Below are positions 26-12,779 of a stretch of DNA of 36,491 bases, in pieces (position 1 is the first letter of the stretch; the number at the start of each line of letters is the position of its first letter). The notes under the pieces were generated by a model. The model was given only the letters and a program-made list of their open reading frames with translations, was not told the origin of the DNA and did not search any database. The stretch lies in contig JAGAWD010000250.1 of the NCBI GenBank assembly GCA_017941585.1, positions 1 to 36,491 of the forward strand, in the 5' to 3' direction. This DNA is from Olsenella sp. (lineage in GTDB: Bacteria; Actinomycetota; Coriobacteriia; Coriobacteriales; Atopobiaceae). Position numbers and translations under genes: made by a program.

Positions 26-101
26 GGCCCCGTAGCTCAGGGGATAGAGCACAGGTTTCCTAAACCTGGTGTCGTTGGTTCGAATCCAATCGGGGTCACC
101 A
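26..101 (+). tRNA. tRNA-Arg (anticodon CCT)
   Basis: A full cloverleaf can be folded. The 7-bp acceptor stem pairs 26-32 with 91-97, with one G-U pair. The anticodon stem is 52-56 with 64-68, and the seven-base loop TTCCTAA places CCT at 59-61. The T loop is TTCGAATC and the CCA end is encoded (99-101). It reads the rare arginine codon AGG. It is closed by a strong terminator nine bases downstream; its promoter may lie before the window. Confidence 0.97.
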
Positions 102-434: not shown

Positions 435-2105
435 ATGATGCATAGTGGGTCAATTGATCTTGCAAACGTGAAGCGAACGATTCTCGTTGTCGAGGACAAC
501 GAGATTAATCGAGAGATGCTCTGTGCCTTTCTCGAGGACGACTTCAACATTCTGCAGGCGGAGAACGGTCTTGTCGGCCTCGAGCAGCTCGAGAAAAACT
601 ACGAGGATCTGTCTCTGATTCTGCTCGACGTGTATATGCCGGAGTGCGACGGGTTCGAGTTCCTGCGGCGGAAGCGGCAGGACGAGCGCTACGATGCCGT
701 TCCTGTCATTGTTACGACGGCAAGTGACTCCCTTGACGACGAGATCAAATGCCTCAAGCTGGGTGCGAACGACTTCGTCGTGAAGCCGTACAACGTCGAG
801 ATTATGATGAACCGCATCAACAACACGATCCATCTCCGTGAGTCGGCATCCATCGTCAATCAGCTCACCTGGGACAATGTGACTGACCTCTACAGCACGG
901 AGTTCTTCTATAGGCACGTCGAGGACATGTTCCGAGCCTTTCCAAAGGCTGACTTCGACATGGTCTGCTGCGACATCGAAAAGTTTAAGTCGCTCAACGA
1001 CCGCTATGGCAAGGCGGCCTGTGACCAGCTGCTCTGCGACCTTGCCGAACGGCTCACGAACAGGCTTCCGGGATTTATTGCCGGCGGGAGGATGGGCAGC
1101 GACACGTTCTCTTTCCTTATCGAGCACCAGCAGCTCGATTGGATCCATGTGCTTGACTCTATCACCGAGGGATTGTTCGCTACGAGCGTGAGCATCAAGT
1201 ATGGCATAGTCGCCAAAGTCAATCACAAGTTGGCTGTCTCGCTTACGTGCGCCCGCGGTTTTATCGCCTTGGAGAAGATCAAGGGCACCATTGGCACTGG
1301 AGTCGCTTGGTACAACGACGAGCTGCGCGAGCAACAGCTCCGACAGCAGATGATTGTCGAGAGCATGGACGTTGCCTTGAAGGAACGCCAGTTCGAGGTC
1401 TACTACCAGCCCAAACACGGCCTCGCCGCGGATGCGACGTGCGGCGCAGAGGCTCTTGCGCGATGGACGCACCCAACCCTTGGCTTTATCTCCCCCGGAG
1501 AGTTCATCCCTCTCTTCGAGAGAAACGGCCTCGTTACGAAGCTTGATCTTTTCATCTACGAGGAGGCCTGTCGCGAAATCAGCCGCTGCAGGGATCTTGG
1601 CCTGCCTATAGTCCCCATATCCGTAAATGCCTCTCGACTCGACTTTGACGTTCCCAATCTCGCGGAGCAAATTGCCGAGATAGCCGACAGATACGAGGTC
1701 GACCACTCGCTGATTCACATCGAACTGACGGAGACCATCTACTCGGACGGGCCGGAGACGGTGGCGCGGGTTCTGAACGATCTGCGGTCACGGGGCTTTG
1801 GCATTGAGCTCGACGACTTCGGCTCTGGCTACTCGTCCCTCTCTTCCCTCAATATCCTCCCTATCGACGTCATGAAGCTCGACATGAGCATGATTCGCCA
1901 GGCGTCCGAGCTCAATGACTTCCGTATCGTAGAGTCGACAATCATGCTCGCTCAGTCGCTGGGATTCAAGACCGTAGTCGAGGGCGTAGAGACGTCCGAG
2001 GAGGTCAGGAGGCTCAGCGAAATTGGCTGTGACCTGATTCAGGGATACTATTTCTCGAAGCCGCTCAAGCGGGAGGATTTCGAGAAGTACCTGATGATGG
2101 GGTAA
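435..2105 (+). CDS. Response regulator with degenerate GGDEF and intact EAL domain (c-di-GMP phosphodiesterase)
   Basis: A 556-residue protein. Residues 12-130 form a CheY-like receiver (ILVVEDNEIN, phosphoacceptor Asp65 in LLDVYMPE). A GGDEF-like domain follows, but the signature reads GRMGSDTF instead of GGDEF, so it is probably inactive as a cyclase. The C-terminal EAL domain keeps the hallmark residues: EALARW (Glu339), NASRLDF, HIELTET, LDDFGSGYSS, VMKLD, VVEGVET and IQGYYFSKP. The expected activity is hydrolysis of cyclic di-GMP to pGpG under phosphorylation control. I chose ATG 435 because the receiver begins just after it; ATG 438 is equally possible, with GGGAAAGACG upstream. It is followed by an Hpt gene and a transporter-kinase gene on the same strand, its likely phosphodonors. 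No active diguanylate cyclase is visible in the window. Confidence 0.92.
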   Translation: MMHSGSIDLANVKRTILVVEDNEINREMLCAFLEDDFNILQAENGLVGLEQLEKNYEDLSLILLDVYMPECDGFEFLRRKRQDERYDAVPVIVTTASDSLDDEIKCLKLGANDFVVKPYNVEIMMNRINNTIHLRESASIVNQLTWDNVTDLYSTEFFYRHVEDMFRAFPKADFDMVCCDIEKFKSLNDRYGKAACDQLLCDLAERLTNRLPGFIAGGRMGSDTFSFLIEHQQLDWIHVLDSITEGLFATSVSIKYGIVAKVNHKLAVSLTCARGFIALEKIKGTIGTGVAWYNDELREQQLRQQMIVESMDVALKERQFEVYYQPKHGLAADATCGAEALARWTHPTLGFISPGEFIPLFERNGLVTKLDLFIYEEACREISRCRDLGLPIVPISVNASRLDFDVPNLAEQIAEIADRYEVDHSLIHIELTETIYSDGPETVARVLNDLRSRGFGIELDDFGSGYSSLSSLNILPIDVMKLDMSMIRQASELNDFRIVESTIMLAQSLGFKTVVEGVETSEEVRRLSEIGCDLIQGYYFSKPLKREDFEKYLMMG

Positions 2106-2192
2106 CACCCTTGGGAGGCGGACGTTATGGGGCCGTCGCGAGAACCGCCGAGGGTACCGCAAAGACCCCGTGGGAACCGATAGGAGGAAGCC

Positions 2193-2564
2193 ATGACCCT
2201 GAGAGAGCTCTACGACCAGATTGGCGGAAGCTACGACGAGGCCTTATCACGGTTGCGGGCGGAAAAACTCATAGGCAAGTTCGTTGTCAGGTTCTTGGAC
2301 GACCACTCGTGCCAGGATCTCTTTGATGCGTGGTCGCGTGGTGACGAGGCAGCCGCGTTCGAGGCGGCACATGCCGCGAAGGGGGTCTGCGCGAACCTGT
2401 CCCTCACGTCGCTTGCTATGCCTGCGAGCGCGATAACCGAGGCTCTTAGGCCAGGCAACGAGTCTCTGAGGGTGACGACTGACGTCGACTCCCTCATCGA
2501 GGAACTTCGTGCGGCATACGAGCGGGCGGTAGAGCGCATCTCCTCCTACGCGGAGTCCCTCTAG
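2193..2564 (+). CDS. Stand-alone histidine phosphotransfer (Hpt) protein
   Basis: A 123-residue soluble protein, the usual size for a single Hpt four-helix bundle. The signature HAAKG is present, giving His60 as the phosphorylated residue, followed by the typical hydrophobic segment VCANLSLTSLA. Hpt proteins shuttle phosphate between the receiver of a hybrid kinase and the receiver of a response regulator. The next gene encodes a hybrid kinase ending in a receiver and the previous gene starts with one, so this protein is the obvious link. The start at 2193 is supported by a strong Shine-Dalgarno (AGGAGG). The gap to the EAL gene is 87 bases and to the kinase gene 22 bases, which suggests co-transcription. 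Specificity for these two partners is inferred from position only. Confidence 0.9.
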   Translation: MTLRELYDQIGGSYDEALSRLRAEKLIGKFVVRFLDDHSCQDLFDAWSRGDEAAAFEAAHAAKGVCANLSLTSLAMPASAITEALRPGNESLRVTTDVDSLIEELRAAYERAVERISSYAESL

Positions 2565-2586
2565 CAACGAGAGAAGGGCGGCTCAC

Positions 2587-5514
2587 ATGGAACGCGGCGA
2601 ATCAAAGGGTTTCCGTGGCGGAGGACTGACACGTTATCTCTCGCCCATTAACGTATGGGCGCTCTCTTTCGGCTGCATCGTGGGGTGGGGCGCCTTCGTT
2701 ATGCCTGGGTCGCAACTTCTCCCACTTGCGGGGCCTGTTGGCACCATCGCGGCGATTTGTATCGGCGCCGTTGCCATGTCGGTCATCGCAGTCAACATCC
2801 AGTGCATGGCCAACGAGTACCCGGACTCGGGGGGAGCCTTCACCTACACCAAGCACATCTTCGGATACGATCACGCCTTCCTGTGCTCATGGTCCCTCGT
2901 GCTGGCATACATCTCCATCATCTGGGCGAACGCGACCGCTTTCATCCTCATCAGCCGATACCTGCTCGGACCGGTGTTTCAGACGGGATTTCACTATGAG
3001 GTTGCGGGATACGACGTGTACCTCGGAGAAATAGCCGTCACTCTCTCCGTCCTGGTGCTGTTTGGCTTTTTGAGTACGAAGCGAAAGCGCGTGGTGAAGT
3101 CTTTGAACACCGTGCTCGCCTTTCTGCTCCTCTTGGGAACGGCTGCATGTTTCGTTGCCGTGCTGGCAAAAGACGGCGGCAACCCGACGAGCTTCACTCC
3201 TCCCTTTGCGCCAAGAGGGGATGCTGCCACGGGAATCATCAGCATCGTTGTCCTCGCACCCTGGGCGTTCATAGGCTTCGAGTCGGTCTCGCACGCCGTG
3301 AGCGAGATGGAGTTTCCGCACCAGAAGCTTCTACCCATACTCATCGTCGCGATTTTGTCGGGGGCGATGGTGTATATCTTCACCACCCTCATCTCGGTGC
3401 TGGGTACTCCCGAGAGCTATGGCAGTTGGGCGGCATACGTGTCGAACCTTGGAAACCTTGACGGCCTTGACGGCCTGCCTACCTTTCACGCCGTGAGTTC
3501 GGCATTGGGTCAACCTGGCCTCTGCCTGCTCGGTATGGTGGTGCTGGCCGCGCTTGCAACCAGCCTCATTGGTCTCTATCGAGCGGCAAGTAGACTCATA
3601 TACCACATTGCCATAGACGGCCTCCTGCCCGAGTGGTTCGGAAGGGTCGACGACGATGGCGTCCCGCAGAATGCCATCGTCTTCATCATACTTATCTCGT
3701 TCGTCGCGCCATTCGTGGGTCGTGCTGCCATCGGGTGGATCGTGGACGTGACGACCGTCAGCGCCTCGATAGCGTATTCATACGTCTCGGCGTGCAGCCT
3801 TCGCGTTGCCCAGAGGGAGAACATGCGCGTCATCAAGGCAACGAGTATTGCCGGTATAGTGCTTTCCGCCGCCTTCTTCATCTATCCCCTCGTTCCGAAC
3901 TTCTGGTCGGTCAGCGCGCTGGCGCCCGAGTCATACCTCATTCTTGCGGCATGGAGCATCCTCGGCCTCGGCTTCTTCCGCATCATCTTTCAACGCGACA
4001 CAAGGGGGCGGTTTGGCAAGTCAACGATTGTGTGGATGGCGATGCTTTCCCTCATCTTCTTCGCTTCGACGATGTGGGTCCGTCAGGTCACGCGCACCAC
4101 GACCGAAAATACCGTTTCCGAGGTGGATTCGTTCTACCAGTCGGAGTACGAGAGCCACGGGATAAAACTTTCCAACAGGGACCTTCGTAAGGAGGAGCGA
4201 TTCCTCGAGCGGGAGACGGAGGGTATTCGATCGTCCCTTCTCAGTAGCAGCTTAGTGCAGGTTGCACTTATCGTCTTCAGTCTTGCGATTATGTTCAGCA
4301 TCTACTCCCTCATGCGGAAGAGGGAGAAGGAGACAGACACAAAGCGATTGGCCGCAGAGGAGACGAGCAAGGCCAAGACGGTATTTCTCTCCAACATGTC
4401 GCATGACATAAGAACACCCATGAACGCGATCATCGGGTACACGAACATCGCCAAGAGGGAGGGCCTGAGCCTCGAGGAGGTTCGCGGCTACCTCGATAAG
4501 ATAGACTCCTCCAGCAAGCACCTGCTCGCCCTTATCAACGACGTCCTCGAGATGAGCCGTATCGAGAGTGGAAAGATAGATCTCGACCCCGTAGAATGTG
4601 ACCTTCGAAAGACGATGAACGAGGTGCGCGACATGTTCGCCACTCAGATGCAGGAGAAGGGGATAACGTTTTCCGTCGACACCTCCGGCGTGAGGAACGG
4701 GCAGGTTTTGTGCGACGTTAACCGGCTCAACCGCGTTCTCCTCAATCTGATCAGCAACGCGTACAAGTTCACGCCCGAGGGCGGAAGGGTTAGTGTCACC
4801 CTCGCGCAGGTCGAGGCCGCTATGGACGGACAGGGTCGCTATGAGCTGCGCGTCAAGGACACGGGTATTGGCATGAGCCCGGAGTTTGCGGAAAGGGTCT
4901 TCGAGGCCTTCGAGCGCGAGCGGAACACCACCGTGAGCGGCATCCAGGGCACCGGCCTGGGCATGGCCATCACCAAGAGTATCGTCGACCTCATGGGAGG
5001 CACGATCGACATAGTCACGGCCCCGGGGGAAGGGACCGAGTTCATCATTGGCCTCGATCTTGAGCTGGCACACGCCGGAGAGGAGCCTGACGTTCGCAAA
5101 GCCGAGGACGAGCAGGCCGGCGAGGTTGACTTCTCCACCAAGCGCATACTCCTCGTGGAGGACAACGAGATCAACCGCGACATAGCGACTCTGATTCTTG
5201 AGGACGTGGGATTCAACCTCGAATCTGCAGAGAATGGAAAGGTTGCTGTGGAGAAGGTGAGGGCCTCACAGCCTGGCTACTACGACGCCATCCTCATGGA
5301 CGTGCAGATGCCCGTCATGAACGGCTACGAGGCCACGAGGGCCATTCGTGCGCTGGATGACCCAGATCTCGCCCATATACCCATTCTGGCCGTCACGGCG
5401 AATGCCTTCTCCGAGGACGTGCAGAACGCGCGGGAGGCGGGCATGGACGGGCATCTCTCGAAGCCGCTTGACGTGCCGAAGGTTCTGCAGGCACTGGGCG
5501 AGTTGCTCGCCTAG
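2587..5514 (+). CDS. APC-family transporter fused to hybrid histidine kinase and receiver
   Basis: A 975-residue fusion. Residues ~15-470 are a multi-span APC-superfamily amino acid permease (GWGAFVMPGSQL near the N-terminus; AFIGFESVSHAVSE in the middle). Two extra membrane spans (~479-499 and ~553-575) flank a charged extracytoplasmic loop of about 50 residues. Then come a HisKA domain with phosphoaccepting His606 (NMSHDIRTPMNAIIGYT), an HATPase domain (N box LNLISNAYKF; G boxes DTGIGM and GTGLGM), and a C-terminal receiver with Asp905 (LMDVQMPVMNGYE). The design resembles the CbrA type of transporter-linked kinase, but with a different transporter family. It probably senses an amino acid or its flux and passes phosphate His-Asp-His-Asp through the adjacent Hpt to the receiver-EAL protein. 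The substrate and whether transport is retained cannot be told from sequence. Confidence 0.9.
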   Translation: MERGESKGFRGGGLTRYLSPINVWALSFGCIVGWGAFVMPGSQLLPLAGPVGTIAAICIGAVAMSVIAVNIQCMANEYPDSGGAFTYTKHIFGYDHAFLCSWSLVLAYISIIWANATAFILISRYLLGPVFQTGFHYEVAGYDVYLGEIAVTLSVLVLFGFLSTKRKRVVKSLNTVLAFLLLLGTAACFVAVLAKDGGNPTSFTPPFAPRGDAATGIISIVVLAPWAFIGFESVSHAVSEMEFPHQKLLPILIVAILSGAMVYIFTTLISVLGTPESYGSWAAYVSNLGNLDGLDGLPTFHAVSSALGQPGLCLLGMVVLAALATSLIGLYRAASRLIYHIAIDGLLPEWFGRVDDDGVPQNAIVFIILISFVAPFVGRAAIGWIVDVTTVSASIAYSYVSACSLRVAQRENMRVIKATSIAGIVLSAAFFIYPLVPNFWSVSALAPESYLILAAWSILGLGFFRIIFQRDTRGRFGKSTIVWMAMLSLIFFASTMWVRQVTRTTTENTVSEVDSFYQSEYESHGIKLSNRDLRKEERFLERETEGIRSSLLSSSLVQVALIVFSLAIMFSIYSLMRKREKETDTKRLAAEETSKAKTVFLSNMSHDIRTPMNAIIGYTNIAKREGLSLEEVRGYLDKIDSSSKHLLALINDVLEMSRIESGKIDLDPVECDLRKTMNEVRDMFATQMQEKGITFSVDTSGVRNGQVLCDVNRLNRVLLNLISNAYKFTPEGGRVSVTLAQVEAAMDGQGRYELRVKDTGIGMSPEFAERVFEAFERERNTTVSGIQGTGLGMAITKSIVDLMGGTIDIVTAPGEGTEFIIGLDLELAHAGEEPDVRKAEDEQAGEVDFSTKRILLVEDNEINRDIATLILEDVGFNLESAENGKVAVEKVRASQPGYYDAILMDVQMPVMNGYEATRAIRALDDPDLAHIPILAVTANAFSEDVQNAREAGMDGHLSKPLDVPKVLQALGELLA

Positions 5515-5544: not shown

Positions 5545-5580
5545 ACAGGCCAAGGACATCTCGCCCCTTGGCCTGTTCTC
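5545..5580. terminator. Hairpin between convergent genes, probable terminator
   Basis: A perfect 11-bp stem (5545-5555 with 5566-5576) has a 10-base loop. It sits between the end of the transporter-kinase gene and the convergent end of the adenine deaminase gene. The following TTCTC makes it a modest plus-strand terminator; it may serve both directions. Confidence 0.6.
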
Positions 5581-9914: not shown

Positions 9915-12779
9915 CTATGAGGCTGCGCCCATCGCCTGTACGTTGAGGCACGACGCGAGCACCTTGCCGGCGACGATCGACGCCTCGCCGGAGCCCTCTC
10001 CCTCGAGGCAGATGGAGATGGCAAGTGTGGGCTGGTCGTAGGGAGCGAATCCCACGAAGAGCGAATTGGATGACGTCTCGCTCACCTCGGCCGTGCCCGT
10101 CTTTCCGGCAACCTTCACACCAGAGACGCGCGCCGGGGTGCCCGTGCCCTCCTCGACGACGGCGAGCATGGCCTCCTTCACGCTTGCGGCCGTGGCCGAG
10201 GAGACGGCCTGGCCGAGCGCCTTGGGCTTGGTCGTTGCGGTCGTGGCGCCCTCGGGGGAGAGGACGTGCCCCACGACGTAGGGGTTCATTGCAATGCCGC
10301 CGTTTGCGATGGCGCCGACCATGACGGCGTTCTGCATCGCCGTGGTCTGGGGTCCGGCGGGTGAGGCGTGCTGGCCCACAGGCTGCCCGCAGGCCGCCCA
10401 GGCCGTCTCCCACTCGGTCATCTCCTCGGGCTTGGGCATGAGCGACGGCTGGCAGGAAAAGTCCTGGCCGATGTTGGAGCCATAGCCAAAGGCACGGGCG
10501 TAGCTCACGAGGGCATTTGCCCCCACTTCGGTGCCAAGTGCGCCGAAGACGGTGTTGGCAGATTCGGCGAGCGCATCTCTCAGAGTGAGGGAGGGCCATG
10601 CCTCCTCGTTGATGTTGGTCACCGGCGCTCCGCCAATCTCGATCGTGGCAGGTGCTGGGTAGGTGGACTCGAGAGTGGCCTTGCCAGTGTCGAGTGCCGA
10701 GGAGAGAGAGACCACCTTGAAGGTCGAGCCTGGCGTGTAGAGGGTCTGGGTCGTACGGTCGACCAGGTTGCCCGTGCTGCCGGAGAGCGATGAGCCGATG
10801 TCCTCGTAATCGAAGGTTGGGTTCGACGCCTTGGCGAGTACCGCGCCGGTCGTTGGGTCGAGCACGACTATTGCTCCGGTGTAGTTCGCGAGAACCTCCT
10901 CGACCGCGCGCTGCATCTGGGCGTTCAGGGTGAGCACGACGCTCGAGCCCGGGGTCTCGACGCCGGCAAGCGCGTTGAGTGCGCTCAGCCAGCTTGAATA
11001 GTCGGCATGCCCGGTGAGCGTCTCATTGAGCGTTGCCTCGATTCCCGTGGCGCCGAAGCGCGTCGAGAGGTAGCCCACGGTATGCGTGGCGACGTTTCCG
11101 AGCGGGTATGTCCTGACGTACGTACCATCCTCGGCCTGCACGCTCTCGGCGAGGGTCGCACCGTCTGAGGTGATGATGGCTCCACGCTGGACCTTTGCGG
11201 ACTTTGCGATGGTGTGGTTGTTGTTGGGCATCGACTGATAATAGCCAGCGCGAACGACCTGGATATAGGTGAGATTGGCAATGAGCAGCGCGAAGGCGAT
11301 CGTGAAGAGCGTCACCAACGCGACGAGGCGCTTGCCGAGTGCCACGCGCCCGAGCACGCCCGACTCAGCGGTCACCATGCCAAAGCGCCCCCGTGCGTGG
11401 GCGCCGTGCACGACGGCCTGCCGCCTGCCGCCGCCCTCCGCGGGGGAGTAGGTTGTGGTCTGCTCCGCCGGAGCGCTCATCTCCATCTGAGTATCGTGGC
11501 CCGTACCCTCGTCGCCCGTCTTGAGGAGAAGGCCGACGATGACGAAGCTGGCGAGAAGCGAGCTTCCGCCCTGGCTCATGAATGGCAGGGTGACGCCCGT
11601 GAGGGGCAGGAAGCGCGTTGTTCCTCCCACGATGAGGAACGCCTGGAAAGCAATGGCGACGGTGAGACCGACGGCCGTGAACGCAGCGACGTCAGACTTC
11701 GCGCGGGCTGCCGTCACGAGGCCTCGGACCACAAAGAGCATATAGCAGATGAGCACAGCCGCTCCACCGAGGAGACCCATCTCCTCTCCGATGGCAGAGA
11801 AGATGAAATCCGACTCGACGACGGGGATGAGCGTGGGCAGCCCCTTGCCGATACCCGTGCCGATGAGACTGCCGTCGGCGAGCGAGTAGAGAGACTGCAC
11901 GATCTGGAGGCCCTTGTTGGAGGGATCCGAGAACGGATCGAGCCAGATTTGAATGCGCACCTGCACGTGCGAGAAGAGTGCATAGCAGACGAGACCGCCG
12001 ATGGCGAGAAGCGCCACCGAGAAGATCACGTAGCTTACGCGACCGGTGCAGACGTAGATCATCACCACGAAGAAGGTGAAGAAGAGCAGGGCCGAGCCGA
12101 GGTCGCGCTCGAATATGACGAGTAGGAGCGAGATGCCCCACATCACGAGCAGCGGCGCCAGCATTCGCGGCCGCGGCAGGGCAAGCGGTCCGATCCTGCG
12201 AGTGGAGGCGGAAAGCATCTCGCGGTTCTCGGCAAGGTAGGCGGCCAGGAACAGGACGATTAGGATCTTCGCAATCTCGCCCGGCTGGAAGGAGAAGGGG
12301 CCAAAGGTGAGCCACAGCTTGGAACCGCCGCGCTCGGTGCCAATGAGCATGGGCAGGAGCAGCAGCACCACGCCTGCGATGCCCATGGTGAACTTGTACT
12401 CGGCTAGCCTGTCGATTGACGGCACGAACACGAGGGTGCAGATCATTGCGGCAACCGACACGAAGAGCCATGCGACCTGCCCGACGGCGAGGTCGGGTGC
12501 GAGGCGCGTTACGAACGCGATCCCTATACCCGATAGGAGAAAGACAATGGGCAGGATCGCAGGATCTGCTCCCGGCGCAAACTTACGCGTGGCTATGTGA
12601 GCCACGGCGAACGAGGCCGTGAGGCCTATGGGAACCGCGAGCGTAGAGAAACTCAAGGGGACTGCCATGTTCGCGAGGTACATCGCGTAGAGCGCGAAGA
12701 CCGGAATCGCGGCGGCGATGGTGAGCGCGAGCTCGGTGTTCCTTCGGGTGTTGGCCTGATGGGTTGCCATGCTACTCAC
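9915..12779 (-). CDS. SEDS glycosyltransferase (RodA/FtsW) fused to class B penicillin-binding protein
   Basis: A 954-residue fusion of two normally separate partners. Residues 1-~430 are a polytopic SEDS peptidoglycan polymerase, with [11 protein letters not shown] and the catalytic-type aspartate Asp226 in [10 protein letters not shown]. After a Thr/Gly/Arg linker, a single span ([22 protein letters not shown]) anchors a penicillin-binding protein. Its transpeptidase motifs are STFK (Ser685, Lys688), SAN (Ser740) and KTGT (Lys893). It should polymerise lipid II and crosslink the product at one site. In most actinobacteria rodA and pbpA are adjacent separate genes in this position, so a fusion explains the missing second gene. 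GTG 12779 overlaps the phosphatase stop by eight bases and has GAGG six bases upstream; ATG 12770 is an alternative. Both catalytic halves look intact. Confidence 0.94.

Follow-up and report, generated by a model that had tools for sequence, protein, structure and literature searches.

The window analysed here is the whole stretch of 36,491 nucleotides. Near its start, at positions 435-5514, open reading frames and Pfam matches placed a three-gene unit on the + strand, consisting of a REC-degenerate GGDEF-EAL protein, a stand-alone Hpt, and an APC permease joined through a two-TM hairpin to HisKA, HATPase and REC domains. The original prediction of three adjacent same-strand genes carrying kinase, Hpt and EAL modules was borne out at these positions, as were its four key residues, His606, Asp905, His60 and Asp65, each of which was invariant in our 11-locus alignments. 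None of the three proteins reached the cut-off of any NCBIfam model. The features are as follows.

26..101, + strand: tRNA-Arg (CCT), found with ARAGORN; upstream boundary of the operon
110-140, 3' of the tRNA-Arg: terminator-like hairpin (terminator scan)
435..2105, + strand: gene 1, 556 aa, running from the ATG at 435 to a stop that ends at 2105; predicted c-di-GMP phosphodiesterase with REC, degenerate GGDEF and EAL domains (Pfam, alignment, residue table)
480..818, + strand: REC of gene 1, aa 16-128, phospho-acceptor Asp65 with codon 627-629 (Pfam)
870..1139, + strand: degenerate GGDEF, aa 146-235, motif RMGSDTF without the cyclase signature (Pfam, 49.5 bits)
1365..2063, + strand: EAL, aa 311-543, with all tabulated catalytic residues (Pfam, 211 bits)
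2193..2564, + strand: gene 2, Hpt, 123 aa, phospho-acceptor His60 with codon 2370-2372, motif HAAKGVCANL (Pfam, alignment, AlphaFold2, fold matches)
2587..5514, + strand: gene 3, APC permease-two-TM hairpin-HisKA-HATPase-REC hybrid kinase, 975 aa (Pfam, alignment)
2626..4026, + strand: 12-TM APC (SLC7-like) domain, predicted amino-acid-binding receptor; AA_permease_2 match at aa 18-438 (AlphaFold2, Foldseek, residue comparison)
4027..4371, + strand: LINK, comprising TM13, an extracytoplasmic helical hairpin and TM14 leading into HisKA (AlphaFold2 helices 480-524 and 530-594)
4375..4572, + strand: HisKA, aa 597-662, invariant His606 with codon 4402-4404 (Pfam)
4714..5064, + strand: HATPase_c, aa 710-826 (Pfam)
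5146..5496, + strand: C-terminal REC of the kinase, aa 854-970, invariant Asp905 with codon 5299-5301 (Pfam)
5545..5576, no strand assigned: terminator-like hairpin separating the operon from a convergent adenine deaminase gene (sequence reading)

The genes are separated by 87 nt (gene 1 to Hpt) and 22 nt (Hpt to kinase), and these gaps, together with the flanking hairpins at 110-140 and 5545-5576, suggest a single transcription unit. An AGGAGG resembling a ribosome-binding site precedes the Hpt gene, and some relatives show an overlap of a few bases between their EAL and Hpt genes. The 330-nt leader of the operon gave no match to a riboswitch or other known RNA in Rfam (E up to 5). Within 250-434, an element that is promoter-like by eye, TGCTAGCATTTGATG, was observed with a leader of ~140 nt on its 3' side; the element also occurs 5' of the operon in the sister-genome locus L039 (about 3880-3895), where the tRNA-Arg and its hairpin are again found upstream. 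The operon contig, from a coriobacterium of gut/rumen type, belongs to a fragmented metagenome-assembled genome (MAG) of 2.98 Mb in 501 contigs (86% complete, 6% contamination), and the nearest named relatives of the window are Atopobiaceae and Coriobacteriales MAGs. A second genome of the same genus, G130 (two contigs, 98% complete), also has the operon downstream of this tRNA-Arg, with 68-76% identity, so contamination of the MAG is no concern for the operon. Elsewhere in the window, a 954-aa ORF (9918-12779, - strand) inside a Ser/Thr kinase-PP2C-FHA cluster combines an FtsW/RodA-type domain with a penicillin-binding transpeptidase and its PBP dimerisation domain; these two activities are usually encoded by two genes.

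Asp65, Thr95 and Lys117 of the gene 1 REC were present in all 24 aligned proteins. The conserved EAL residues are E339, N398, E430, D460, D461, K481, E516, E519 and Q536, and the complete set of tabulated EAL catalytic and metal residues was found in 23 of the 24. The best solved relatives include the known phosphodiesterases DosP, MucR and RocR. A further locus, L130, has a divergent pair of Hpt and EAL and was set aside on account of the more distant Hpt and of catalytic residues missing from the EAL. The gene 1 product had been described as a receiver-EAL protein; the REC, Asp65 and the intact EAL residues were all found, and what that domain list overlooked is the degenerate GGDEF. When gene 1 was assessed as an active diguanylate cyclase, the motif was absent (RMGSDTF), and an intact GG(D/E)EF signature occurred at this position in 0/24 aligned proteins. 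Degeneracy is also a feature of regulatory GGDEF domains and is seen here in all members, which would fit an output other than hydrolysis, with the phosphorylated REC or the degenerate GGDEF serving as a c-di-GMP/GTP sensor or the protein as a contact adaptor. We consider this improbable in view of the EAL catalytic residues, the phosphodiesterases among the solved relatives, and fusion paralogues, described below, that add an intact GGDEF cyclase motif. The preferred reading of gene 1 is thus a c-di-GMP phosphodiesterase.

The Pfam score of the Hpt was marginal (25.5 bits, cut-off 24.6; E 1.6e-5). The AlphaFold2 model (pLDDT 97.6, pTM 0.89) is a helical bundle with the histidine in an HxxKG context. 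The top Foldseek matches of this model were Hpt proteins, including ArcB-Hpt and HptB, none with an E-value below 0.001, and a profile search with the Hpt placed HptB on top (7c1i, E 2e-4). The predicted structure confirmed the marginal Pfam call.

The AlphaFold2 model of the kinase (pLDDT 86.6) showed an APC fold in which TM1 and TM6 are broken, followed by two extra long helices (480-524 and 530-594) that are predicted to exit and re-enter the membrane and to continue into HisKA. This LINK segment is kept together with the APC domain in relatives. By Pfam and AlphaFold2, the stretch that follows TM14 is too short for a STAC domain, and no Pfam domain was found between APC and HisKA. The best structural matches of the APC domain in Foldseek were y+LAT1, GkApcT and AdiC, and its best sequence matches were cationic amino-acid transporters. 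The motifs that bind the amino-acid backbone were invariant in 44/44 relatives, both in TM1, where GWG corresponds to GTG of GkApcT, and in TM6 (PWA..GFE), where W226, A227 and E232 match GkApcT F231, A232 and D237. The position of the TM5 lysine (GkApcT Lys191, BasC Lys154) was hydrophobic or small in every one of the 44, and that of GkApcT TM3 Glu115 was V, T, A or S. Alanine at the TM5 lysine of GkApcT or BasC, or at Glu115 of GkApcT, abolished or crippled transport. These replacements lead us to read the domain as a receptor and not as a working transporter. The evidence from these positions is suggestive and not proof, since the TM5 charge is missing from AdiC too and GkApcT is a distant protein to align with.

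The original prediction called this domain an APC-type transporter; the APC fold stood, and the substituted TM5 and TM3 positions argue against a working transporter. Were the permease nevertheless to work, the kinase would respond to flux or to the state of transport, a view discussed for CbrA, and not simply to the occupancy of a transporter that no longer works. In favour are a complete APC domain with 12 TM and conserved breaks in TM1 and TM6, the ability of AdiC to operate without a positive TM5 residue (PMC6472337), and the transport and kinase activities that CbrA combines (PMC7096432). Set against this are the positions replaced in all 44 relatives, the lysine retained in that part of TM5 by two stand-alone APC proteins from the genus, and the transporter-fused kinase KsAmt5, which binds its ligand and does not transport efficiently. 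We regard a working transporter as unlikely. The APC domain is probably a ligand-binding receptor that has lost transport, as predicted from its residues, and its ligand is probably an amino acid.

We next consider how widely the trio is conserved. A survey of the class covered 298 genomes; the searches used one genome per species, and MAG assemblies may miss genes. A full-length APC kinase was found in 10 other genomes of the class, and in 10/10 the EAL-Hpt-APC kinase order and strand were kept. The prediction had staked itself on the three genes being neighbours in relatives, and they adjoin in these ten and in distant phyla; the system extends beyond actinobacteria, into Clostridia and Erysipelotrichaceae. 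Conservation of the order in independent genomes rules out a chance arrangement. An APC-LINK profile scan of 84,980 named species genomes returned at least 578 relatives. The best 80 of these were nearly all APC-LINK-HisKA-HATPase-REC proteins, gut-derived by appearance or from genera typical of the rumen. Among the same 80, Hpt and EAL genes (or EAL parts at contig ends or frameshifts) adjoin the kinase in 11 contigs, assigned to Atopobiaceae, Coriobacteriales, Clostridia, Oscillospiraceae and Erysipelotrichaceae from rumen or gut, and most of the 80 have no Hpt or EAL alongside. The pairing is therefore a property of two subclades of the APC tree, in which the operon-bearing entries lie. A second hybrid kinase, without an EAL, is often the neighbour of the APC kinase in gut bacteria such as Lachnospiraceae and Selenomonadaceae (L065, L080, L084, L087, L089, L102, L108 and others), suggesting other outputs for the same receptor.

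Two operon types were distinguished. Type A, that of the window, has three genes and was seen in Coriobacteriia only; type B adds a second hybrid kinase and an extra receiver on the APC kinase and occurs in Clostridia, Erysipelotrichaceae and Coriobacteriia. The A/B split was fully supported in the EAL tree as well, whose branching resembles that of the APC tree. Pairwise distances of EAL, Hpt and APC were correlated over 19 loci (r 0.88-0.89; 0/5000 permutations as high) and also inside types A and B (0.57-0.86). The matching trees and correlated distances indicate that the trio moves and evolves as a set. Coriobacterial type B sequences are nested among clostridial ones, pointing to transfer of the unit as a whole, with the qualification that some of these records are MAGs in which binning errors are possible. 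The operon may have had one origin or two; the APC tree needs two changes. If the neighbourhood were an accident, the permease kinase would act elsewhere and the phosphodiesterase would be unrelated to it. That most of the best 80 of at least 578 APC-kinase relatives are without such neighbours is in keeping with this view, which is nonetheless disfavoured and very unlikely, given that the 22 members sampled from the two operon subclades retain the trio, that trees and distances agree, and that independent gene fusions join the same modules.

These fusions constitute the strongest new evidence and are independent of synteny. The paralogues that carry them are given in the first two lines below, and a related neighbourhood in the third.

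L050 4724-9088, L052 7225-11595 and L053 2227-6594: APC-LINK-GGDEF-REC-GGDEF*-EAL proteins of 1455-1457 aa (GGDEF*, degenerate GGDEF)
L051 1019-3292 and L085 2126-4405: APC-LINK-GGDEF proteins of 758-760 aa
L120 6144-10922 and L135 6148-10898: APC kinase beside REC-GGDEF and Hpt in Butyrivibrio sp. MB2005 and WCD3002 (neighbouring genes, not a fusion)

In the fusion paralogues the first GGDEF is intact (RTGGDEF or RVGGDEF) and the EAL is complete, and they fall at two places on the APC tree. In Butyrivibrio MB2005 and WCD3002 an intact REC-GGDEF (RMGGDEF) precedes the APC kinase and the Hpt gene is divergent, and in Oscillibacter MAGs a divergent REC-GGDEF gene lies before the APC kinase. Taken together, the EAL operons, the GGDEF neighbours and the fusions put the same sensor next to c-di-GMP-making as well as c-di-GMP-breaking enzymes, and in Butyrivibrio the sensor may be wired to c-di-GMP synthesis.

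No Hpt besides that of the operon was detected in the window genome or in G130; in G118, a genome of the same genus without the operon, we detected no Hpt and no receiver in a kinase-sized frame. G130 has nine receivers, of which one is in the APC kinase, two are in one further hybrid kinase, five are in ordinary regulators and one is in the REC-GGDEF-EAL protein. Three of the five ordinary regulators were checked and are DNA-binding, and two were judged by size and neighbouring kinases; on this inventory, no receiver output other than the REC-GGDEF-EAL protein lacks a DNA-binding domain. Matches to GGDEF and EAL number 25 and 9 in the window genome, and PilZ proteins and c-di-GMP-I riboswitches were detected in none of the three genomes of the genus.

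Each operon-bearing genome contains exactly one further hybrid kinase in a count that covers the HisKA DHp type, an extracytoplasmic sensor-HK-REC-REC protein without its own Hpt and with a solute-binding-protein-like gene downstream. It is located as follows.

L145 440-2977 (contig C265 of the window genome): second hybrid kinase, HK-REC-REC
L142 1430-4012 (G130): second hybrid kinase, HK-REC-REC

This kinase may feed the Hpt of the operon. We tentatively hold it quite possible that the Hpt is a hub common to both kinases and that the phosphodiesterase integrates two signals: no other Hpt is present in either genome, type B operons put a second hybrid kinase beside the trio, and free HptA serves RocA1, RocA2 and RocR3 (PMC12051241), while the second kinase is not adjacent to the operon in the window genome. 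Such a hub is compatible with, and does not exclude, the main explanation.

That main explanation, which we consider likely, is that a kinase with a transporter-derived receptor feeds a His-Asp-His-Asp relay of four steps that ends at a c-di-GMP phosphodiesterase. The domains, the invariant acceptor and catalytic residues, the conserved operon, the correlated evolution, the single Hpt and the APC fusions all point to it. A small amino-acid-like ligand would bind in the APC domain where TM1 and TM6 are broken, and a conformational change would pass through TM13, the hairpin and TM14 to the HisKA dimer, altering autophosphorylation at His606. Phosphate would then flow from His606 to Asp905, to His60 of the Hpt and to Asp65 of REC-GGDEF*-EAL, where phosphorylation would switch c-di-GMP hydrolysis by the EAL domain up or down. 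In the original relay interpretation, adjacency and wiring gained support from gene order, single-Hpt genomes and fusions of permease and c-di-GMP enzyme; the domain list of the output needed a degenerate GGDEF added, the permease domain looks more like a receptor than a working transporter, and CbrA is a kinase of the SLC5-STAC type.

On a broader scale, APC-LINK could be a large undescribed class of bacterial nutrient receptors, derived from amino-acid permeases that have lost transport, that interchangeably drives kinases, cyclases and phosphodiesterases and so sets c-di-GMP in gut and rumen bacteria; our confidence in this is evenly divided. The scan alone gave at least 578 sequence-detectable relatives, whereas transporter-derived receptors have been called rare. 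If amino acids are what is read, the system would provide a direct route from nutrient signal to c-di-GMP in gut and rumen bacteria and a ready case in which to study the conversion of a transporter into a receptor. The recurrence of the trio, or of fusions of its parts, across gut bacteria suggests a little-noticed tie of nutrient signal to lifestyle control, and the Butyrivibrio isolates with the cyclase-wired version make the idea testable.

Several known systems resemble this one in part. RocS1/RocS2 and RocS4-HptA-RocR3 of Pseudomonas, ArrS-ArrR of Aeromonas, VieA and PvrR likewise combine hybrid kinase, Hpt and REC-EAL in c-di-GMP breakdown (PMC12051241, PMC11841396), and two-hybrid assays linked a hybrid kinase, a free Hpt and a REC-EAL in RocS4-HptA-RocR3 (PMC12051241). 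The Roc-type features found here are a HisKA-HATPase-receiver kinase with its acceptors, an Hpt, and a REC with a catalytically complete EAL, with the extra degenerate GGDEF between them, which RocR and ArrR lack. RocS1 and ArrS have periplasmic binding-protein-type sensors and an Hpt inside the kinase, whereas here the sensor is a permease and the Hpt is free; the Roc network further includes regulators that are transcription factors. Since phosphorylation has an inhibitory effect on the phosphodiesterase in ArrS-ArrR (PMC11841396), the sign of control cannot be assumed here.

CbrA and CrbS share with the window kinase a LeuT-fold transporter domain fused to a histidine kinase. CbrA had been cited as a precedent for transporter-linked kinases; the precedent exists and is of another type. 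CbrA/CrbS have an SLC5 domain of 13 TM plus STAC and act on the transcription factors CbrB/CrbR, whereas the window kinase joins a 12-TM APC (SLC7-like) domain to a two-TM hairpin and has a c-di-GMP enzyme as its output. It falls outside the CbrA/CrbS family, as its domain is AA_permease_2/APC instead of SLC5 and has no room for STAC after it. It shows the fold, the broken TM1/TM6 and the G-x-G of APC (SLC7-like) proteins; the residues required for transport in CAT/LAT members (TM5 Lys, TM3 Glu) occur at the aligned positions in 0/44 relatives. SLC5-STAC-GGDEF fusions are also known (PMC5715377, PMC13022988). Excerpts on KsAmt5 describe a transporter fold turned ligand receptor, fused to a kinase and poor in transport (PMC5764959, PMC8534201); its ammonium transporter fold is an unrelated membrane domain, and these excerpts mention no Hpt/EAL operon. 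In LysP-CadC, an APC-family permease takes part in amino-acid-dependent signalling, as proposed here (PMC12764776), but LysP is a separate protein that contacts a transcription regulator, without a kinase or c-di-GMP enzyme. Transporter-derived receptors in bacteria have been described as rare (PMC13022988), and one survey states that sequence comparison had brought to light no wider occurrence, under a strict definition that sets aside STAC-linked cases such as CbrA (PMC11109136). In the open-access literature we found no description of APC-kinase or APC-GGDEF fusions or of an EAL-Hpt-APC kinase operon. The plan of the relay is thus known from the Roc-type systems; what is new is its undescribed APC-type (SLC7-like) receptor module.
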